Positions 104 through 9,359 of a stretch of DNA of 9,359 nucleotides are shown in pieces. The stretch spans positions 1 to 9,359 of the forward strand of contig JAJYDP010000151.1 of assembly GCA_021777365.1 (NCBI GenBank), read 5' to 3'. Within the stretch, counting starts at the first letter, position 1, and each line of letters starts with the position of its first letter. This DNA is from Chloroflexota bacterium (GTDB lineage Bacteria > Chloroflexota > Limnocylindria > Limnocylindrales > CSP1-4). The position numbers were made by a program, and so were the translations under genes. The notes under the pieces were generated by a model. That model was not told the origin of the DNA. It worked only from the letters and a program-made list of their open reading frames with translations, and searched no databases.

Positions 104-2128
104 CTAGTCAGCATGGAGCCACGTCCCGACGTGGTAGACGATCGCACCGGCCGAAAGCGAGATGACGAGCAGGAGCCCGAGGTCCGCGAGCGCCCACCTC
201 CAGCCGCCGGTTTCCTGCCGCATGACGGCGAAGGTCGCCACGCAGGGGATGAAGAGCATCTGGACGACGAGGAACGCCAGACCTGCCGCCGGCGTCACGG
301 TGGGGGCCAAGTTGGCGGCCAAGTCGGTGCCGCCCCGACCGGACGCGAAGAGGATCCCGAGGGTGGCGATCGTGTTCTCCTTGGCCACGAAACTCGTCAG
401 CAAGGCCACGATCATCTGCCAGTCGAGTCCCAGTTGGGCGCCGAGCGGCGCGAAGAACCGACCGATCGCCGCGAGGTAGCTGGTCTCCATCTCTCTGGTC
501 GGGAACGTCGCGAGCACCCAGACCAGCACGGAAAAGACCACGATGATGCCGCCCGCCTTCTTGAGGAACGCGACCGTCCGTTGCCACACGGCAAGCGAGA
601 TGGTGCGGGCGTTGGGCAGATGGTACAGGGGCAGTTCCATGATGAACGCGGCGTGCTTGCCGCCGAAGACGAACCGGTGCAGCAGGACGCCGGTGAGCGC
701 GAGCGTCGCCAGGCTCAGGCCGATGAGCGCCCACATCACCCAGAAGGCCGCGGCGCCAAAGAAGATCGGCGCGAGGACCGTTACCACCGCCATGCGTGCC
801 GTGCACGGCACGAGCGGCGCGAGCAGGATGGTGAGGAGGCGTGCCTTGGGCGAATCGATGATGCGCGTGCCCAGGACCGCCGGGACGTTGCACCCGAAGC
901 CCAGGAGCAGCGGGAAGAACGACTTGCCGTGCAGGCCCATGAGGTGCATGTAGCGGTCCATCACGTAGGCGATGCGCGCCATGTAGCCGACGTCCTCCAG
1001 GAGCGCGAGGACGGCGAAGAAGATGAGCAGGATCGGCAGGAACGTGATGACCATCCCGGCCCCCGCCAGCACCCCGTCCGCGAGCACGCCCGATAGCCAC
1101 CAGGGCGCCCCGGCAAGGACCTGGCGCAGCCATGACGCGCCGCCCTCGACGAGGTATGTGTCGAGGAGACGCTGCAGCGGCGCGCCGATCGCGTACGTCA
1201 GCCAGAAGACGGCGCCCAGGATGCCCAGCACGAGGAGCAACCCCCAGAGCGGGTGCGTCGCGACCCGGTCGATCCCGTCGGTCAGGACGACCTGTCCGGC
1301 GCGCGGCCGGGAGACGGCGGCGCGCACCATCCGGGCGATCCATTCGTACCGGCTGCTGGCGATCTCGAGGATCGCGTCTTCGTGGCGCAGGAGGAGCGCA
1401 TCGACCTGCTCCCACTCGCCCGGCGGCAAGCGCTCGCGGATCATCTGTGAGATCTCGGTGTCGCCTTCGAGCAGCTTGAGGGACACCCAGTCGTGCGGAT
1501 AGGGCGCTGGCACGGCAGGCGCCACCAGCCGCTTGAGTTCTTGGGCCACACGTTGGTGCTCTGGGTCGATCTGCGGTCGCGAGGGCGCGTAACCCGCTGG
1601 GTCGCGGGCCGTGCGCAGGATCACCTGGACCAGTTCCCGCACGCCCTGGTTCTTCACGGCGATCATCGGCACCACCGGTAGCTTGAGGGCGCTCTCCAGC
1701 ACCGCGGGTTCGACGTGGATGCCACGTCGTTCGGCGATGTCCAGCATGTTGAGGGCGACGACGACGGGGGCCGGCAGCGCGAGCAACTCTGCCAGGAGGT
1801 ACAGATTGCGCTCGAGGGCGGCGACGTTGACGATCAGCACCACGAGGTCGGGGCGTTCCTTGACGACGAAATCCCGCGCAACCCGTTCCTCGGGCGAATC
1901 CGCCGTCAGGCTGTACGTACCCGGGAGATCGACCAGCCTGATCTCGACGTCTTCTTCACCGCGAGCGTAGTACACACCGGTCTTCTGCTCGACCGTCTTG
2001 CCGGGCCAGTTGCCGACATGCTGGCTCAACCCGGTCAACATGTTGAAGACGGTGGACTTGCCGACGTTGGGCTGGCCGGCCAAGGCCACCGTGATCTGGC
2101 GCGTTGCCGCACCCTGCGCCACCGTCAT
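104..2128 (-). CDS. feoB: Ferrous iron transport protein B (FeoB)
   Basis: FeoB is the inner-membrane Fe(II) transporter with a cytoplasmic N-terminal GTPase domain. The 674-residue length is within the normal FeoB range. The G-protein motifs are in order: G1 GQPNVGKST at residues 18-26, the G2 threonine near 45 (PGKTVE), G3 DLPG at 67-70 and G4 NMLD at 127-130. A helical GDI-like region spans about 180-275. The membrane part follows, with the two conserved cysteine-bearing gate motifs GFGCNVPAV (410-418) and LVPCTARM (439-446) and the late signature SFVAKENTIATLG (579-591). The ATG at 2126-2128 overlaps the feoA stop as ATGA, so translation is probably coupled. No FeoC gene is visible downstream. 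No frameshift or missing core motif was seen. The family assignment is close to certain; Fe(II) as substrate is inferred from family. Confidence 0.97.
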   Translation of the reverse strand: MTVAQGAATRQITVALAGQPNVGKSTVFNMLTGLSQHVGNWPGKTVEQKTGVYYARGEEDVEIRLVDLPGTYSLTADSPEERVARDFVVKERPDLVVLIVNVAALERNLYLLAELLALPAPVVVALNMLDIAERRGIHVEPAVLESALKLPVVPMIAVKNQGVRELVQVILRTARDPAGYAPSRPQIDPEHQRVAQELKRLVAPAVPAPYPHDWVSLKLLEGDTEISQMIRERLPPGEWEQVDALLLRHEDAILEIASSRYEWIARMVRAAVSRPRAGQVVLTDGIDRVATHPLWGLLLVLGILGAVFWLTYAIGAPLQRLLDTYLVEGGASWLRQVLAGAPWWLSGVLADGVLAGAGMVITFLPILLIFFAVLALLEDVGYMARIAYVMDRYMHLMGLHGKSFFPLLLGFGCNVPAVLGTRIIDSPKARLLTILLAPLVPCTARMAVVTVLAPIFFGAAAFWVMWALIGLSLATLALTGVLLHRFVFGGKHAAFIMELPLYHLPNARTISLAVWQRTVAFLKKAGGIIVVFSVLVWVLATFPTREMETSYLAAIGRFFAPLGAQLGLDWQMIVALLTSFVAKENTIATLGILFASGRGGTDLAANLAPTVTPAAGLAFLVVQMLFIPCVATFAVMRQETGGWRWALADLGLLLVISLSAGAIVYHVGTWLHAD

Positions 2129-2430
2129 GCGAGGTGCTCGCCGTCGGGTACAGGCTGGGATGGCGTGACCTGCACCAGCACGTGCCCGGCTTCACGACGT
2201 CCCAAGGCAATCCGACTCTCGCGCACGAGCGTGATCAACGGCCCGCGGCCGTAGTTCTGCATGACCCGTATCGGGGCGCCGACGGTGAACCCCAAGGCCG
2301 TCATCCGGCTCAGGAAGCCGGTGCCGCCCCTGAGATCACAGACGACGCCGTGCGCTCCGGCCGGCAGGTCACCCAACGGCGTGGGTGCCGCTCCCCGGCC
2401 ATTCGATCCCTGCGTCTCGCAGCGATCCAT
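2125..2430 (-). CDS. feoA: FeoA-domain ferrous iron transport accessory protein
   Basis: FeoA is a small cytoplasmic SH3-like protein required for FeoB-mediated Fe(II) uptake. The 101-residue product has the typical FeoA pattern: an N-terminal LGDLPAGAHGVV strand, then LSRMTALGFTVGAPIRVM and the C-terminal ITLVRESRIALGRREAGHVLV. It overlaps feoB by four bases, the usual feoA-feoB arrangement. I chose the ATG at 2428-2430 because AGGGGAGG lies immediately upstream (plus-strand 2433-2440). An in-frame ATG at 2452-2454 would add eight residues but has no ribosome binding site and would begin two bases after the inverted repeat at 2456-2489. The extra N-terminal tail before the domain (about 17 residues) is variable in the family. 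Family call strong; start site moderately sure. Confidence 0.92.
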   Translation of the reverse strand: MDRCETQGSNGRGAAPTPLGDLPAGAHGVVCDLRGGTGFLSRMTALGFTVGAPIRVMQNYGRGPLITLVRESRIALGRREAGHVLVQVTPSQPVPDGEHLA

Positions 2431-2455
2431 CGCCCTCCCCTGAGCGGGGCTCATG

Positions 2456-4078: not shown

Positions 4079-4826
4079 TCACAGCAGGTCCAGCGCCATC
4101 TTGGCGGCGATCACCCAGAGCAGGACGCCGATGATCCGCTTGAGCTGCGGGCCAGTCAGCCGGGTCCTCATCACGTGCGATCCGACGAGGGACCCCGCCG
4201 CGGCCAGCGCGGCCATGCTCAGCGTGAAGCGCGGGTCGATGCCGCCCAGGGACGCGTGGCCGGCGAACCCCGAGAGCGAGGAGAAGAAGACCGCCAGTGC
4301 CGTGGTGCCGGCCGCGACCTTCGGCTCGAGGCCGAGCCAGGTGAGCCCGGGCAGGATGACGTTGCCGCCCCCCCACGCCGAGCAGGCCACCCAGGAACCC
4401 GGCCACGCCGCCGACCCCCGCCCCGACCCCGGCCTCGGCCGCCCGCCCGACATCGCGACGGGAGGCCCGGGCCCGGTAGAAGAGCATCATCGCCCCGGCG
4501 AAGAGCAGAAAGCCGACGAAGAGCGCGAGCAGCACGCGCCGGTCCACGCTCGCCGTCAGGCGCGCACCCAGGGGCGCCAGGACGACCGCCGCGACGAGCA
4601 CCGGCACGCCGGCTCGCCAGTCGATGAGCCGCCCGCGCCAGTACGCCACCGTTGCGGCCGAGAGGCTCACTGCGTTCAGCAGCAGCGCCGTGGACGTCGC
4701 CTGACCGAGGGGCACGCCCAGGTAGTAGAAGAGGGGCACGAAGAGGAACGCGGCGCCCAGGCCGACCATGGCCATGACGCCCGAGAAGACGAAGACGCTT
4801 GCCCCGCCGACGGCGTAGAGCAGCAC
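4079..4826 (-). pseudogene. TauE/SafE-family exporter with a one-base frameshift
   Basis: TauE/SafE proteins are membrane exporters linked to sulfite, sulfoacetate and other organosulfur compounds. The first half (about 153 residues from a GTG at 4824-4826) has the N-terminal repeat: FSGVMAMVGLGAAFLFVP, then STALLLNAVSLSAATVAYWR. The second half, including GGGNVILPGLTWLGLEP, AAGTTALAVFFSSLSGFAGH and a C-terminal helix ending AKMALDLL, lies in another frame and stops at 4079-4081. The break is at a run of seven Gs on the minus strand (plus-strand Cs 4368-4374). With six Gs the reading becomes GVGGGNVILP, the expected second repeat, giving about 248 residues, the normal size. Without correction the first frame runs on to 3999 as nonsense. 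Both halves look otherwise undamaged, so a sequencing error, phase variation or a very recent mutation is more likely than old decay. It starts 19 bases after the DsrE-FmdE stop. Confidence 0.85.
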
Positions 4827-4845: not shown

Positions 4846-5910
4846 TCAGCGCGGATAGCCCGAGCAGGCCGCGCACACCAGCCGGCCTTCCGCCACCCGA
4901 AGGTACGGCTCGGCGACGAGCTCGCCGCAGGACGGGCAGACCGCGAAGCGCACGACCTCCTCGGGCTCGCTCCACGCGCGCGCCTCGATCGGCCCGACGG
5001 TCATGATCTCCCCCGCCAGCGCGTCCCAGACCAGGTGCACGACCTCCATCTGCTCATCGTCGGGGATCTGCGAGGCTGGCACGCCCGCGGCGCGCTTCTG
5101 CATGAACGAGGTGGCGCGGATACGCGGCTGGAGGGTCGGCTTGTAGGCAACCCGGACGGCGCGCTGGGCATCCTTGTCGATGAGGGTGACCGCGAACTTC
5201 CCCTCCCCCGACTTCTCGATGTTGCCTTTGCCGAACGTGCAGCCGGTGGTGAACTGGATGCCGTCGCCGAAGCACATCCCGCCGTGGTAGTCGCCGGTCT
5301 CGATGATCGCGTGCAGTTCCTTGGCGCCCGCGCGCGTCGCGCCGAGTTCGCCCATGGCGGCCAGCCCCAGCCGCACGCCGGCCGTGCTGGCCCAGCACTT
5401 GTGGCCGTGGAAGGCCAGGGCCTGGCTCAGGATCTCGGTGTCATCCATGGATCGCTCCCCTGGTGGCCAGTAGACGAGGACGTGGGAGGCCGAGCCGATC
5501 TCGACGATGAAGCGCCCCGCCGCGATCACCTCGGCGTTCTCGACGAACTGGGTCGAGGCATCGATCCGCCGCTTGTTGACGCTCGGCGGGCAGGCCAGCA
5601 GCCGCCCTCCGAGCTCCCGGTAGTCCGCCAGCAGCTTCGACAGAGGTGGGAAGCCGTCCACGGCCACGGCGTCGGCGGCACCCTTGACGGCCAGTTCAAC
5701 ACCTGCGCCCTGCAGCCCCACGACGACGTCCACCTCGGATGCCAGGGCTCCGACGGCCATGACGAAGGGGATCGTCGCCTTCTCGGGCTCGTCGGGTCCG
5801 TGCGTGACCATGATCACGTCCACCGGTATCTGGCGGGTCACGCGCCGCGTCCGGCCTGCCCGTCCATCGGGCGGTTTGGCATGGTCGTGATGCCTCGCGC
5901 TGCTCTGCAT
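4846..5910 (-). CDS. DsrE-like / FmdE-domain / zinc-ribbon fusion protein
   Basis: Three parts are visible in 354 residues. Residues about 28-147 resemble DsrE-type small sulfurtransferase or peroxiredoxin-like proteins: VIMVTHGPDEPEKATIPF, a VGLQGAGVELAVKGAAD segment, and a cysteine at 107 in LLACPPSV. Residues about 158-260 are an FmdE domain, with FHGHKC (167-172), GDYHGGMCFGDGIQFTTGCT (206-225) and later FAVTLIDK; FmdE is named after a subunit of Mo/W formylmethanofuran dehydrogenase but occurs alone in many bacteria. The end is a zinc ribbon, C325-x2-C328 and C346-x2-C349. An in-frame ATG at 5446-5448 (residue 155), exactly at the domain junction, has GGGGAG six bases upstream, so a separate FmdE-ribbon protein may also be made. 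The N-terminal start is uncertain: the ATG at 5910 has no ribosome binding site, and a GTG at 5841 or ATG at 5811 fits the domain edge better. Likely role, inferred: sulfur or metal delivery to a molybdoenzyme. Confidence 0.85.
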   Translation of the reverse strand: MQSSARHHDHAKPPDGRAGRTRRVTRQIPVDVIMVTHGPDEPEKATIPFVMAVGALASEVDVVVGLQGAGVELAVKGAADAVAVDGFPPLSKLLADYRELGGRLLACPPSVNKRRIDASTQFVENAEVIAAGRFIVEIGSASHVLVYWPPGERSMDDTEILSQALAFHGHKCWASTAGVRLGLAAMGELGATRAGAKELHAIIETGDYHGGMCFGDGIQFTTGCTFGKGNIEKSGEGKFAVTLIDKDAQRAVRVAYKPTLQPRIRATSFMQKRAAGVPASQIPDDEQMEVVHLVWDALAGEIMTVGPIEARAWSEPEEVVRFAVCPSCGELVAEPYLRVAEGRLVCAACSGYPR

Positions 5911-6354
5911 GCGGAGGCGGGGAGGCGTGGGGCGCAGAGCCTTATGCCTCCCCGCCGGTACGTTCAGGTCTTCGCCGGCCGCGAGTGACCGCCGGGGCGT
6001 ACCCGGCGCCTCGCCGACGCCTCGAACATCTCAGGCACAACTGTGACAAGTTCGACTGAGGCGCGCCCGGGTCCCGAGGCCCGTTCTGGCAGGGCCGGAT
6101 GGCACGGGAGGCTCCGTCGGGCGGCAACGGCGCCGGACGGCTCGGGTTACTCGCCAGCCCTGGGCGTGCGAGGCGTGGTCGCACCACCCCGCGACGCTCC
6201 TGGCCTCCAGTCGCCGCAGATCCGGATCCGGCGAATCGGCCGCGTGCGAGCCCGGTGGCGGCTGCTGGGTGGCTACCCTGGGGCGGTTACCGTGGACCAG
6301 CCCTGGTGCACCGCACGGGGCACATCACCAGCCGGGGTGGCCGTGGACGATCCG
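5911..6354. other. 444-bp gap without a recognisable gene
   Basis: No frame here gives a protein I recognise; the open frames that cross it on both strands are arginine- and proline-rich, as expected of non-coding GC-rich DNA. It separates the DUF6457 gene from the DsrE-FmdE gene, so the latter probably has its own promoter. It contains the long hairpin at 5916-5956 and a ten-base palindrome CCGGATCCGG at 6222-6231, which is expected by chance at this GC. A TGTGA half-site occurs at about 6051, without a good second half. No tRNA, riboswitch core or promoter pair convinced me. Confidence 0.5.
5916..5956 (+). repeat. Long hairpin upstream of the DsrE-FmdE gene
   Basis: GGCGGGGAGGC at 5916-5926 and GCCTCCCCGCC at 5946-5956 are perfect 11-bp complements. 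Read as plus-strand RNA the stem continues inward without interruption for seven more pairs (G-U, U-A, G-U, G-U, G-C, G-C, C-G) to a five-base loop GCAGA at 5934-5938, making an 18-bp stem. On the minus strand the three G-U pairs become C-A mismatches, so the structure is stronger for plus-strand RNA although no plus-strand gene is known here. No U-run follows. It is six bases from the most upstream possible start of the DsrE-FmdE gene, where it could hinder translation or act as an operator. Confidence 0.45.
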
Positions 6355-6624
6355 TCACGCGCCGGTCTGGTTCTCCAGGTGCTCGACCAGCGTCCGCAGC
6401 GCGACGGCCCGATCCTCCGGTGCGTGCGAGGCAAGCGCGACGCCGACGAGGAACGCCGAGATGGGAGCCGCTATGCGCTCGCTGGCGTGGGCAGCCACGC
6501 GGGCCAGGTCGAGGATCGCGGCCTGTTCGACAGCGGTAGGCTGGGCGCTCCCCGCCGGCAGCTCGCGGGCCAGGAGATCGAGCCACGCCGACAGTGGCAG
6601 GGCGTGCTCGGATTGCGTTGTCAT
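6355..6624 (-). CDS. Small DUF6457-type protein
   Basis: The 89-residue product is acidic to neutral, helical and without membrane segments or cysteines. The central pattern LSAWLDLLARELPAG (11-25) followed by ILDLARVAAHASERIAAPISAFLVGVAL (37-64) matches my recollection of the DUF6457 family, small proteins that in Actinobacteria occur alone or joined to MobA-like molybdenum cofactor guanylyltransferases. The start ATG at 6622-6624 overlaps the stop of the upstream gene as ATGA and has AAGGAGAGG just before it; a longer frame reaching 6678 would have an arginine-rich, unlikely N-terminus. Function is unknown. Its place beside molybdoenzyme electron-transfer genes fits a role in cofactor maturation, but this is inference and the family call is from memory. 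Confidence 0.75.
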   Translation of the reverse strand: MTTQSEHALPLSAWLDLLARELPAGSAQPTAVEQAAILDLARVAAHASERIAAPISAFLVGVALASHAPEDRAVALRTLVEHLENQTGA

Positions 6625-6980
6625 CGGGCCTCTCCTTCGCTCGCTCCCGCGGCTGCGTCGAGCACCTCGCGCGCCCACCCGTAGGCGGCCGCCGTGGCAG
6701 GAAAGCCGGCCGTGGGCACCGCGAGGGCGACGGCATGGAGCAGGGCCTCGGCCGTGATCCCCTCCTCGAGCCCGCGCCGGACGTGCGAGCGCACCGCTCC
6801 CTCGGAGGACAGCCCGATCGCGATCCCCAGCTTCACCAACCGCTGCTCGCGCAGGGTCAGCGGGCCGGCCGCGCGGCAGGCTTCGGCCACCGCATCGTAC
6901 GCACCGGCCACGTCAGGGTACGAGGCTCGCAGCGCCAGGTACACGCCCGGGAGGTAGCCTCCCGGCTGTTGGTCGTTCAT
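6621..6980 (-). CDS. Carboxymuconolactone decarboxylase (CMD/AhpD-like) family protein
   Basis: The 119-residue protein has the CMD fold pattern: LTLREQRLVKLGIAIGLSSEGAVRSHVRRGLEEG (41-74), then ITAEALLHAVALAV (75-88) and AGFPATAAAYGWAREVL (91-107). In AhpD-type members this stretch holds a CxxC peroxidase/disulfide motif; here those positions read SSEGAVRSH, with no cysteine, while the histidine (66) and a nearby glutamate (60) are kept. Only one cysteine (C35) occurs, outside the motif, so thiol-based AhpD chemistry is unlikely. The ATG at 6978-6980 has GGAGG five bases upstream and is preferred to the long upstream extension, which looks non-coding. It is the first gene of the minus-strand arm and overlaps the DUF6457 gene by four bases. 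Exact function unknown. Confidence 0.88.
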   Translation of the reverse strand: MNDQQPGGYLPGVYLALRASYPDVAGAYDAVAEACRAAGPLTLREQRLVKLGIAIGLSSEGAVRSHVRRGLEEGITAEALLHAVALAVPTAGFPATAAAYGWAREVLDAAAGASEGEAR

Positions 6981-7271
6981 GGATCCCTCCAGGAGTGAAC
7001 GGGAGCGATCGCCGGGCCGTCGCGTGGCATGGTAGCCGCACGGACTGCCGATTGCCGCGGCAGTCCGCATGCTGGAAGTCCACTTTTCTCGCCGAACGGC
7101 AGGCGACTGGCATGCCGGATGACCCCTGACCCTCCACCGGAGGTCGACCAGCATGGCGGACGGTGCGGTGGTTCGCCGCTCGTCCAGGCGGCGAGCCTGG
7201 CCCCGGGGATTGCGCCCCGCGGGCGGCGGTGCGCACCGCGATTCCCACGGTACGGGAGGGAGCAGGGACCC
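6981..7271. promoter_or_regulatory. Divergent intergenic region between the two arms
   Basis: This 291-bp region separates the CMD-like gene (minus) from the Fe-S subunit gene (plus) and must hold both promoters unless transcription comes from further away. I found no clear -35/-10 pair on either strand and no convincing sigma-54 -24/-12 site. It contains a perfect ten-bp inverted repeat (7041-7067) and a 14-base palindrome GCGGTGCGCACCGC at 7226-7239, 32 bases before the Fe-S start. The palindrome alone is compatible with chance at this base composition. Confidence 0.55.
7041..7067. repeat. Perfect 10-bp inverted repeat in the divergent region
   Basis: CGGACTGCCG at 7041-7050 is exactly complementary to CGGCAGTCCG at 7058-7067, with a seven-base spacer ATTGCCG. 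It is 61 bases upstream of the CMD-like gene start and about 205 bases upstream of the Fe-S gene. A dyad of this size suits a dimeric regulator, or it may be a leader hairpin. It shares no clear sequence with the inverted repeat upstream of feoA. A repeat of this length is only marginally above chance at this GC. Confidence 0.4.
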
Positions 7272-8264
7272 ATGCCGAACCCGGAGACTCAGGGGGGCAC
7301 GGCCGTCGCAACGCCCGAACCGGCAGCCGACTCTGCCGAAACCACGGCCCTCCAACGACGCGAGTTCATGACCAAGGCGGCCGCCGTCCTGGCGGCCGGG
7401 GCCGTCCTTCCATGGGGTGGACTCCAGGCGACGGTGTTCGCCCCAGACAGGGAGAAGACCGCGAAGGGACATGGCGCCCGGCGTGCCGTGGCCGCCCCCG
7501 CGTTCGACATCAGCCCCCAGGCGGACGAGGACATCCTGGTCCGCATGCAGCGCGACCTGGTCCGTGCCCTGCGGAAGCCGATCGAGCAGCGCCGGTGGGG
7601 CATGGTCATCGACACGCGCAAGTGCGTGGCCTGCATGTCGTGCACCGTCGCGTGTGTGATGGAGAACAAGCTACCCCCCGGCGTCGTCTACCGTCCGGTC
7701 GTCGACACCGAGATCGGAACCTACCCCAACGTCACCCGGCGGTTCCTGCCCCGGCCGTGCATGCAGTGCGAGAACCCGCCGTGCGTCGCGGTCTGCCCCG
7801 TCGCGGCGACGTTCAAGCGGCCGGACGGGATCGTCGAGATCGACTACGACGCCTGCATCGGCTGCCGGTACTGCATCACCGCCTGCCCGTATCAGGCTCG
7901 AACCTTCGACTTCGGCGCCAACTGGACCGACAACGCGGCGCGCGGCCCGGAGGCCGCGCTCGCGCTCGACTCGGGCGCGCCCTACGAACACCTCCCCAAC
8001 TTCGAATACAGCGAGGAGTGGCGTCGGGCCGAGGGCGTCGTCCCCACGAGCCCGGTCGGAAACGCCCGGAAGTGCACGTTCTGCGCCCACAGGCTCGAGG
8101 TGGGCTTGCTGCCGATGTGCGTCACGACGTGCATCGGCCGGGCGACGTTCTTCGGCGACCTCGACGATCCGACCGCCCTCGTCTCGGAGCTCACCGCCAG
8201 CCCCAGCGTGACCCGACTCAAGGAAGAGCTTGGGACCGAGCCCAAGGTCTTCTACCTGCTGTGA
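7272..8264 (+). CDS. Tat-exported four-[4Fe-4S] electron-transfer subunit of a molybdoenzyme complex
   Basis: The 330-residue protein carries electrons between a membrane quinol subunit and a molybdopterin catalytic subunit (PsrB/TtrB/SrdB/DsrO type). Four cysteine groups are complete: C118-x2-C121-x2-C124-x3-C128; C163-x2-C166-x4-C171-x3-C175; C195-x2-C198-x2-C201-x3-C205; C268-x2-C271-x11-C283-x3-C287, enough for four [4Fe-4S] clusters. Near the N-terminus is a twin-arginine signal, [20 protein letters not shown] (29-48), after a long 28-residue lead, so this subunit has its own Tat signal and the complex should face outside the cytoplasm. The ATG at 7272-7274 follows GGGAGGGAGCAGGG; an upstream extension of the frame lacks family features. 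The NrfD-type gene begins 13 bases after the stop. The substrate cannot be read from this subunit. Confidence 0.95.
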
Positions 8265-8277
8265 GGAGGACCGAGGC

Positions 8278-9359
8278 ATGACTGCCGGGACACGAGCACC
8301 CCAGCTCACCGGTCTTGGCTGGCCGCCCGCCGTGCGCTACGGCGCCCTCGTCGTCTGGCTGGTGGCCGCGGTCATCGGGGCGATCGGGATCGGCCAGCGG
8401 CTCCTGCTCGGCGAGCGGCTGACGGCCTACTCGAGCTACATCCCGTGGGGCCTGTGGGTCGCCGCGTACATCTTCTTCGTCGGCCTCTCTGCCGGGGCGT
8501 TCCTCCTGTCCAGCCTCGTCTACGTCTTCGGCGTCCGCCAGTTCGAGCGGATTGGGCCGCTCGCGCTCTTCGTGGCGGCGGTCACGCTCGCGATGGCCCT
8601 CCTCTCGATCCTCTTCGACCTGGGCCACATGGAGCGCTTCTGGGAGGTGTTCGTCCGGCCCCAGTTCCACTCGATGATGGCCTGGATGGTCTGGCTCTAT
8701 GCCGCCTACTTCTTGCTCCTGCTCGGGGAGCTGTTCCTTGCTCTCCGCCGCCGCGTCGTGCGCCTGAGTGCGGACCAGATCGGTCGCGACGACCGGTGGA
8801 TCCGGATCCTGGGCACGATCGGCGTCCCGCTCGCCGTCGCCTTCCACGGCGGTGTCGGCGCCTTGTTCGGTACGGTCGTCGCGCGCGAGTACTGGAACAC
8901 GGCGCTCTTCCCGATCATCTTCCTCAGCGGCGCGCTCCTGTCCGGCAGCGCGCTCCTGACCGCCACCGTGGTGTTCATCTGGCCGACGCGGGATGCGGCG
9001 TGGCGCGAGCTCGTGGGCGGGCTCGTCAAGATCGTCATCGGCCTCGTCCTGCTCGAGCTCCTGCTCGAGTTCGCCGAATTCACGATCCCGGCCTGGTACC
9101 AGGTCGGCTCGGGGGCCAACCTCATCACGTATGTGCTGTTCGGGCCGTTCTGGTACGTGTTCTGGGTGGTCTACCTCCTCCTCGGGGTCGTGGTCCCACT
9201 CATCCTCCTGACCCGACGCAACATTGCCCTGCAGGGCATCGGCGCGGCGCTCGTCGCGATCACCTTCTTCGCCGTCCGGCTCAACCTGATCATCCCGGGC
9301 CTGATCACGCCCGAGCTCCGAGGCCTCGAGCACGCGTATCTCGACCCGGTTGCCGGTCG
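8278..9359 (+). CDS. NrfD/PsrC-family membrane quinol subunit, 3' end cut by window
   Basis: The frame stays open for 360 codons to the window end. It is an integral membrane protein with about eight to nine helices visible, and it anchors the complex and exchanges electrons with the quinone pool. Family features are SSYIPWGLWVAAYIFFVGLS (52-71) followed by AGAFLLSSLVYVFG, the HMERFWEVF stretch (117-125), HSMMAWMVWLYAAYF (131-145), FHGGVGALFGTVVAREYWNT (189-208) and a late NIALQGIGAALVAITFFAVR (315-334). GAGGAGG overlapping the stop of the Fe-S gene serves as ribosome binding site for the ATG at 8278-8280, showing a tight operon. Most NrfD proteins are roughly 300-420 residues, so only a short C-terminal part should be missing. 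The next gene, outside the window, is expected to be the catalytic molybdopterin subunit. Confidence 0.94.
   Translation, partial: MTAGTRAPQLTGLGWPPAVRYGALVVWLVAAVIGAIGIGQRLLLGERLTAYSSYIPWGLWVAAYIFFVGLSAGAFLLSSLVYVFGVRQFERIGPLALFVAAVTLAMALLSILFDLGHMERFWEVFVRPQFHSMMAWMVWLYAAYFLLLLGELFLALRRRVVRLSADQIGRDDRWIRILGTIGVPLAVAFHGGVGALFGTVVAREYWNTALFPIIFLSGALLSGSALLTATVVFIWPTRDAAWRELVGGLVKIVIGLVLLELLLEFAEFTIPAWYQVGSGANLITYVLFGPFWYVFWVVYLLLGVVVPLILLTRRNIALQGIGAALVAITFFAVRLNLIIPGLITPELRGLEHAYLDPVAG

Follow-up and report, generated by a model that had tools for sequence, protein, structure and literature searches.

Does the single reading frame that joins a DsrE domain to an FmdE domain in this DNA encode a fusion protein, or does it represent two genes run together? 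Within the window (the whole stretch of 9,359 nucleotides that was analysed), positions 4846-5910 of the minus strand form one open frame of 354 aa, in which Pfam places DsrE at residues 33-146 (2.7e-11; 44.1 bits against a cut-off of 22.7) and FmdE (PF02663) at residues 167-286 (3.4e-27; 95.6 bits against a cut-off of 22.9). A dksA/traR-type C4 finger at residues 322-349 scores 23.4 bits, just under its cut-off of 24.9. An earlier note on this DNA had described DsrE, FmdE and a C-terminal four-cysteine finger in one frame, with an ATG at residue 155 preceded by GGGGAG, and all of this is present in the letters, the ATG at 5446-5448 and the GGGGAG in front of it at 5455-5460. The parts of the frame, as we read them here and with four related loci (L001, L003, L005 and L066) for comparison, are as follows.

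5470-5841, minus strand: DsrE gene, probably running in its native form from GTG (5839-5841) up to the codon in front of the presumed lost stop (Pfam, 26 aligned relatives, Foldseek)

5467-5469, minus strand: TGG codon where the DsrE stop would belong (TAG in L001 and L003, TGA in L005 and L066, at the same place)

5449-5466, minus strand: probable former intergenic spacer, in which GGGGAG (5455-5460) is likely to be where ribosomes bind for fmdE (the L001 spacer is of equal length)

4846-5448, minus strand: fmdE, 200 aa when counted from its ATG; its FmdE core carries the HxHxC...C metal site (free-standing relatives, 92% identity in L001, match to 2gvi)

4864-4938, minus strand: C-terminal four-cysteine finger (C325, C328, C346 and C349 of the open frame; 2gvi profile match, row conservation)

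The relatives of both halves are free-standing. When the 7999 candidates sharing the most words with the full query were scored, 608 proteins matched; the 120 listed are free-standing, with lengths of 197 to 217 aa, and most have 200 aa, which is also what the frame measures from residue 155 onward. The 24 FmdE relatives that were aligned start at the position of window M155, at most 17 residues earlier or at most 3 later. The DsrE part matched 334 proteins (the 120 listed are free-standing, of 116-159 aa), and all 26 aligned DsrE relatives stand alone and end with the tyrosine (in L-V-Y or L-T-Y) that precedes W in the window, which past this tyrosine reads Y-W-PPGERS-M155. Among 948 candidates of fusion length, none matched the DsrE part (residues 20-165) at E <= 0.001, in a search that depends on shared five-residue words and that a very distant fusion could escape. 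A six-frame search of 126 genomes of the order, reading through stops, gave matches in 42, none with an open frame over both halves; the sole place that covers both halves lies in the genome of L001 (the match in G001) and has one TAG inside. A set of 61 relatives, many from the same genomes, agrees in having no open fusion. The established DsrE-FmdE architecture that the earlier note had considered is therefore rejected, since neither these candidates nor these genomes provide a second frame of this kind.

Loci in which the two genes are neighbours indicate where the stop went. The genome collection holds 70 loci with a relative of the FmdE part, and in four of them (L001, L003, L005 and L066) DsrE, with its own stop, lies directly upstream of FmdE. 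The junction codons are TAC-TAG in L001 and L003, TAC-TGA in L005 and L066, and TAC-TGG in the window. In L001, the closest locus (FmdE 92% identical to that of the window), the DNA runs TAC-TAG-18 nt-ATG, compared with TAC-TGG-18 nt-ATG in the window; the former stop and spacer are identical at 17 of 21 bases, and, relative to L001, one base (the second of the codon, window 5468) joins both genes into one frame. The TAG of L001, followed by the same spacer and ATG, supports the other suggestion made for this frame, that two neighbours have run together and kept the old ribosome binding site. Because the relatives are separate, L001 has a stop at this place and no open fusion was found, the ‘internal start’ at residue 155 is read as the native start of fmdE, served by a ribosome binding site of that gene. 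The comparison thus points to two separate operon genes, dsrE and fmdE, joined where the dsrE stop reads TGG, and we give this reading of the 4846-5910 frame a probability of about 75%.

Two transporter genes on the same strand complete the conserved set, and the first of them bears on how the stop came to be missing.

4079-4826, minus strand: TauE/SafE permease, with a +1 frameshift where seven G follow one another (about 4368-4374); both pieces match PF01925

2832-3944, minus strand: SLAC1/TDT family anion transporter, the last gene of the conserved set (PF03595, 1.3e-61; 86% identical in L001)

The extra base in the G run of TauE is absent in four relatives, and it sits about 1.1 kb from the lost dsrE stop. 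Compared with L001, TauE is constrained on both sides of the frameshift (dN 0.041 and dS 0.448 over the first 124 codons, dN 0.060 and dS 0.429 over the last 94, beyond the frameshift; dN/dS about 0.09 before and 0.14 after), and it was therefore either broken only very recently or is still whole in the cell. The corresponding values are dN 0.044 and dS 0.384 for FmdE, dN 0.085 and dS 0.440 for SLAC1, and dN 0.161 and dS 0.373 for the last 75 codons of DsrE, the weakest constraint of the genes compared, partly because some of the L001 codons compared lie in a foreign segment (a chimeric gene).

With two lesions in one operon, a sequence error appears at least as likely as a biological event. 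That sequencing or assembly went wrong at the stop codon, and that the organism has two normal genes, seems to us an even bet: two gene-disrupting differences fall within one small operon, and one of them is an extra base inside a run of seven G in a gene constrained on either side of it. A single substitution, however, is less typical of sequencing error than a homopolymer indel, and the other window genes that were scanned show no visible breaks. A genuine recent fusion, in which the stop codon really mutated and the cell makes a 331-354 aa fusion together with free FmdE from the retained start, falls well short of even odds. The spacer is in register with both dsrE and fmdE, so a true fusion would be translated; the frame is open, the GGGGAG...ATG start region is kept and FmdE is under constraint. 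Yet such a fusion would be a singleton among the 948 candidates and 126 genomes, and the second disruption nearby, in a constrained gene, points to sequence error. The probability left beside these two accounts belongs to cases such as a mixed population. The fusion itself, being one codon in one sequence, is of little weight.

For DsrE as a gene of its own, the GTG at 5839-5841 (residue 24) is more likely the start than the ATG at 5910, because conservation in DsrE sets in at about residue 24-30. Both a profile match and the conserved cysteine place the product in the DsrE family (PF02635): all 27 aligned rows, that of the window among them, have Cys at position 107, in agreement with the remark in the earlier note that this residue is kept. 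The same note had read CPPS in place of a second cysteine, which is also correct and is common to some close relatives, residue 110 being C in 14 rows, G in 7 and S in 6. Both by profile (4.3e-8) and by Foldseek (3.8e-6) the DsrE half matches 3mc3, and its best Foldseek matches are DsrE/DsrF-like; the two halves were modelled apart, so that the models carry no junction information, and the DsrE model is poor at 136-147. Fold and conserved cysteine are common to the window DsrE and the DsrE/DsrF-like family (PDB 3mc3, DsrEFH 2hy5, TusBCD 2d1p), whereas the window gave no match to DsrF, DsrH or a TusA-like protein among the ten frames scanned. At two other loci only part of the gene is seen. The DsrE gene of L001 (9479-9982) retains the C-terminal half alone, behind a hydrophobic segment that by eye is like a cation-efflux protein (Pfam DsrE weak, 0.017), apparently through chimeric assembly or recombination; this damage calls for care with L001 as the closest comparison for the junction. 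In L105 (1513-1965) a DsrE C-terminal half stands behind a TauE-like N-terminal segment (weak Pfam, 0.002) and is followed by a SLAC1 gene 87% identical to that of the window.

All four residues that bind metal in the solved structures, HxHxC plus a Cys further on, are present in FmdE of the window. They are His, His, Cys and Cys in 68-69 of 71 rows, the remainder being gaps, a conservation that is partly by construction because the loci were fetched by patterns containing these residues; the finger cysteines are Cys in 63-64 of the 71 rows, with gaps in the rest. Sequence (7.3e-16), profile (1.2e-19) and Foldseek (1.2e-9) comparisons all match the FmdE half to 2gvi, and the profile match takes in part of the finger, ending at position 193 of 200. 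The FmdE model is poor at 53-77, the stretch with the later metal Cys, and is uninformative on that ligand. Passages of PMC2954224 describe a His-His-Cys-Cys metal site in the structures 2glz, 2gvi and 3d00, an unidentified ligand near the second Cys of this site in 2gvi, and a core with a circularly permuted thioredoxin-like fold and domain-swapped dimers. In the same passages, Thermoplasma acidophilum TA1109 (PDB 2gvi) has a core with FHGHxC and a later Cys, followed by a C-terminal treble-clef finger, as in the window (PMC2954224); the window finger has four Cys, whereas that of 2gvi has three Cys and one Asp.

What surrounds FmdE in other genomes is more telling than the fused frame. TauE lies within 400 nt of FmdE on the same strand in 59 of the 70 loci, whereas random placement of the FmdE interval within these loci would give 2.9. 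Going by their record titles, these 59 loci come from Chloroflexi, Actinomycetes, Proteobacteria, Thermodesulfobacterium, Nitrospirae, Caldisericales and Dictyoglomaceae, among others; the cultivable relatives Bellilinea and Leptolinea (L023, L027) have the FmdE-TauE pair. TauE is upstream of FmdE in 30 cases and downstream in 30 (window included), so the link between the two genes has survived rearrangement. Among the 11 loci with no TauE inside 400 nt, four have a same-strand TauE 646-3914 nt away; in three of the 11 (L052, L057 and L069) the contig stops no more than 1 nt from the FmdE frame. Genes found up to 3 kb away from FmdE are Thioredoxin_3 in 28 loci, an ArsP permease in 24, SLAC1 in nine and DsrE in four of the 70 (the TauE, thioredoxin and ArsP profiles were built from 36, 8 and 23 sequences, respectively), and ArsR, LMWPc and SBF genes also occur in FmdE loci. 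The gene order DsrE-FmdE-TauE-SLAC1 is shared by the window, L001, L003 (where SLAC1 is cut by the contig end), L005 and L066 (where ArsP and thioredoxin precede the set). FmdE was absent from all 27 other DsrE loci of the order (L081-L106 and L113; flanks about 1.5 kb or less), two of which, L105 and L106, carry SLAC1. The linkage of FmdE with TauE is thus the useful result from these sequences, DsrE and SLAC1 having apparently been added in the window's clade; the open-licence papers searched contained no report of it, with or without DsrE, nor of FmdE together with DsrE in Chloroflexi. TauE/SafE permeases and FmdE proteins both occur widely but are little understood, and the name of FmdE continues to come from methanogenesis; in contrast to FmdE of fmd operons, the subfamily in the window keeps company with TauE, and this tight linkage, from Chloroflexota to Thermodesulfobacterium, offers a testable function for FmdE outside methanogens.

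For the gene set as a whole we infer a substrate, a direction of transport and a chemistry. SLAC1-type transporters can export sulfite (yeast SSU1), and a search of the open-licence literature returned no paper on sulfite export by a transporter of this type. The set DsrE-FmdE-TauE-SLAC1 may form a module that transports a small sulfur oxyanion, e.g. sulfite or thiosulfate, a reading that we place a little below even odds. TauE and SLAC1 would move the oxyanion across the membrane, the cytosolic DsrE is predicted to be a Cys107 persulfide carrier, and FmdE, with a His2Cys2 metal site in a thioredoxin-like fold, would act with DsrE to load, sense or chemically process the oxyanion at the membrane. 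This mechanism is proposed by analogy to the TsuA/TsuB pair: as passages of PMC11582611 describe, E. coli TsuA (YeeE) has an essential cytosolic partner, TsuB (YeeD), that is persulfidated, and thiosulfate uptake by YeeE/YeeD shares with the window the logic of a transporter gene beside a gene for a cytosolic persulfide-type carrier. The families differ, however, in that the window transporter is TauE/SafE (PF01925), and the role of the TusA-like TsuB would fall to DsrE and FmdE; the two operon transporters match PF01925 and PF03595 only, and neither matches a YeeE/YedE-type importer. One TauE is termed a putative sulfite exporter in a passage of PMC11582611, and TauE sulfite exporters and SLAC1/TDT transporters belong to the same Pfam families as the two operon transporters, a likeness by family only.

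Two other functions have to be weighed against a sulfur-oxyanion module. DsrE accompanies FmdE in just 4 of the 70 loci, and the thioredoxin_3, ArsP, ArsR, LMWPc and SBF neighbours would allow FmdE-TauE to belong to a module for metal(loid) or thiol-stress export, in which FmdE would be a metal chaperone or a regulator. The frequency of Thioredoxin_3 and ArsP in the FmdE loci argues for this, as do three small frames scanned from those loci, which are ArsR-type regulators; passages of PMC2954224 likewise report that most PF02663 genes adjoin metal-ion transporters and suggest a regulatory role for the zinc finger of their products. It nevertheless strikes us as rather unlikely, since the most constant neighbour is TauE and the partners in the window's clade, DsrE and SLAC1, are of sulfur- and anion-type families. 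A more specific version of the sulfur-oxyanion reading, equally doubtful, would make the zinc-finger FmdE a dedicated cytosolic partner of TauE/SafE in several phyla, to which one Chloroflexota group has added DsrE and SLAC1 to give a module of four genes, with the DsrE persulfide being exchanged at the FmdE metal site next to the transporter.

The other function, proposed in the earlier note, is FdhD-like: DsrE-FmdE would deliver sulfur or metal to the molybdenum cofactor of a neighbouring NrfD/Fe-S enzyme. It draws on the genes upstream of the frame, which are listed here with the rest of the window (all by Pfam).

104-2128, minus strand: FeoB

2125-2454, minus strand: FeoA

6355-6678, minus strand: DUF6457 gene

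within 6621-7472, minus strand: carboxymuconolactone-decarboxylase-like gene

within 7029-8264, plus strand: Fe-S protein, DsrO/TtrB-like

8230 to the window end, plus strand: NrfD

The DsrO/TtrB-like Fe-S gene and NrfD are divergent neighbours of the operon. They are 75-77% (Fe-S) and 73-82% (NrfD) identical to pairs in two genomes, G001 (contig C75) and G006 (C214), where a gene for a TtrA-like molybdoenzyme comes directly after them. This gene is an open frame of 1121 or 1187 aa that NCBIfam matches best to the tetrathionate reductase TtrA, with scores (469 and 489 bits) far under the cut-off of 1750, and the best solved relatives of the first of these frames (1121 aa) are thiosulfate reductase 2vpw and ArrA 6cz7. 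In both genomes, however, FmdE is on another contig (C3 and C217), and in six of six relatives' genomes, which are fragmented, the molybdopterin and NrfD matches lie on contigs other than that of FmdE or NrfD is absent. The linkage expected under this proposal was borne out in part, with NrfD/Fe-S genes 2.4-9.3 kb from FmdE in 3 of the 70 loci: NrfD at 3.2 kb in L069, 8.9 kb in L065 and 9.3 kb in L007, and an Fe-S homologue at 2.4 kb in L069. Because this Fe-S/NrfD pair resembles the arrangement in the window, which is thus not unique, the odds of cofactor delivery are somewhat higher, and the DNA of L069, L065 and L007 ends in or just after NrfD, before any catalytic gene could appear. The catalytic part of the expectation failed: of the 70 loci, 37 of which extend more than 3 kb to both sides of FmdE and 64 to one side or both, none has a molybdopterin oxidoreductase closer than 3 kb, and three have one at 5.6, 8.3 and 9.4 kb. 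These counts come from profiles built from eight frames for NrfD and ten for the oxidoreductase (the L115 and L116 matches, which have an inner TGA, were left out), plus tblastn. By profile, NrfD also is within 3 kb in none of the 70, but a stop-to-stop NrfD tblastn match reaches 2.5 kb in L069, at the Fe-S gene, and by the same measure the window's own NrfD is 2.8 kb from FmdE, so the 3-kb line is not to be pressed.

Other evidence runs against cofactor delivery as well. Linkage to a Mo/W formylmethanofuran dehydrogenase, the minority trait that gave FmdE its name, was found within 3 kb in 0 of the 70 loci by the same oxidoreductase search, and in the published context described in passages of PMC2954224 only 13 of 208 PF02663 genes adjoin fmd catalytic genes. 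The open frame has no Pfam or NCBIfam match to an FdhD domain. With no fused relative, no molybdopterin oxidoreductase inside 3 kb and TauE as the usual neighbour, we regard delivery to a molybdenum cofactor as very improbable; in most relatives the Ttr-like genes are probably neighbours of FmdE by position, though a sulfur-oxyanion theme is shared.

Three smaller observations concern the DNA around the operon. For the Fe-S and NrfD genes at 7239-9357, a corresponding catalytic gene would lie past the window end. A perfect 11-bp inverted repeat (GGCGGGGAGGC ... GCCTCCCCGCC, window 5916-5926 and 5946-5956) is located just upstream of the open frame and is possibly an operator or a hairpin. Finally, a 67-aa segment 40% identical to DUF6457 occurs near a molybdopterin oxidoreductase in L123, suggesting a possible link between DUF6457 and molybdoenzymes.
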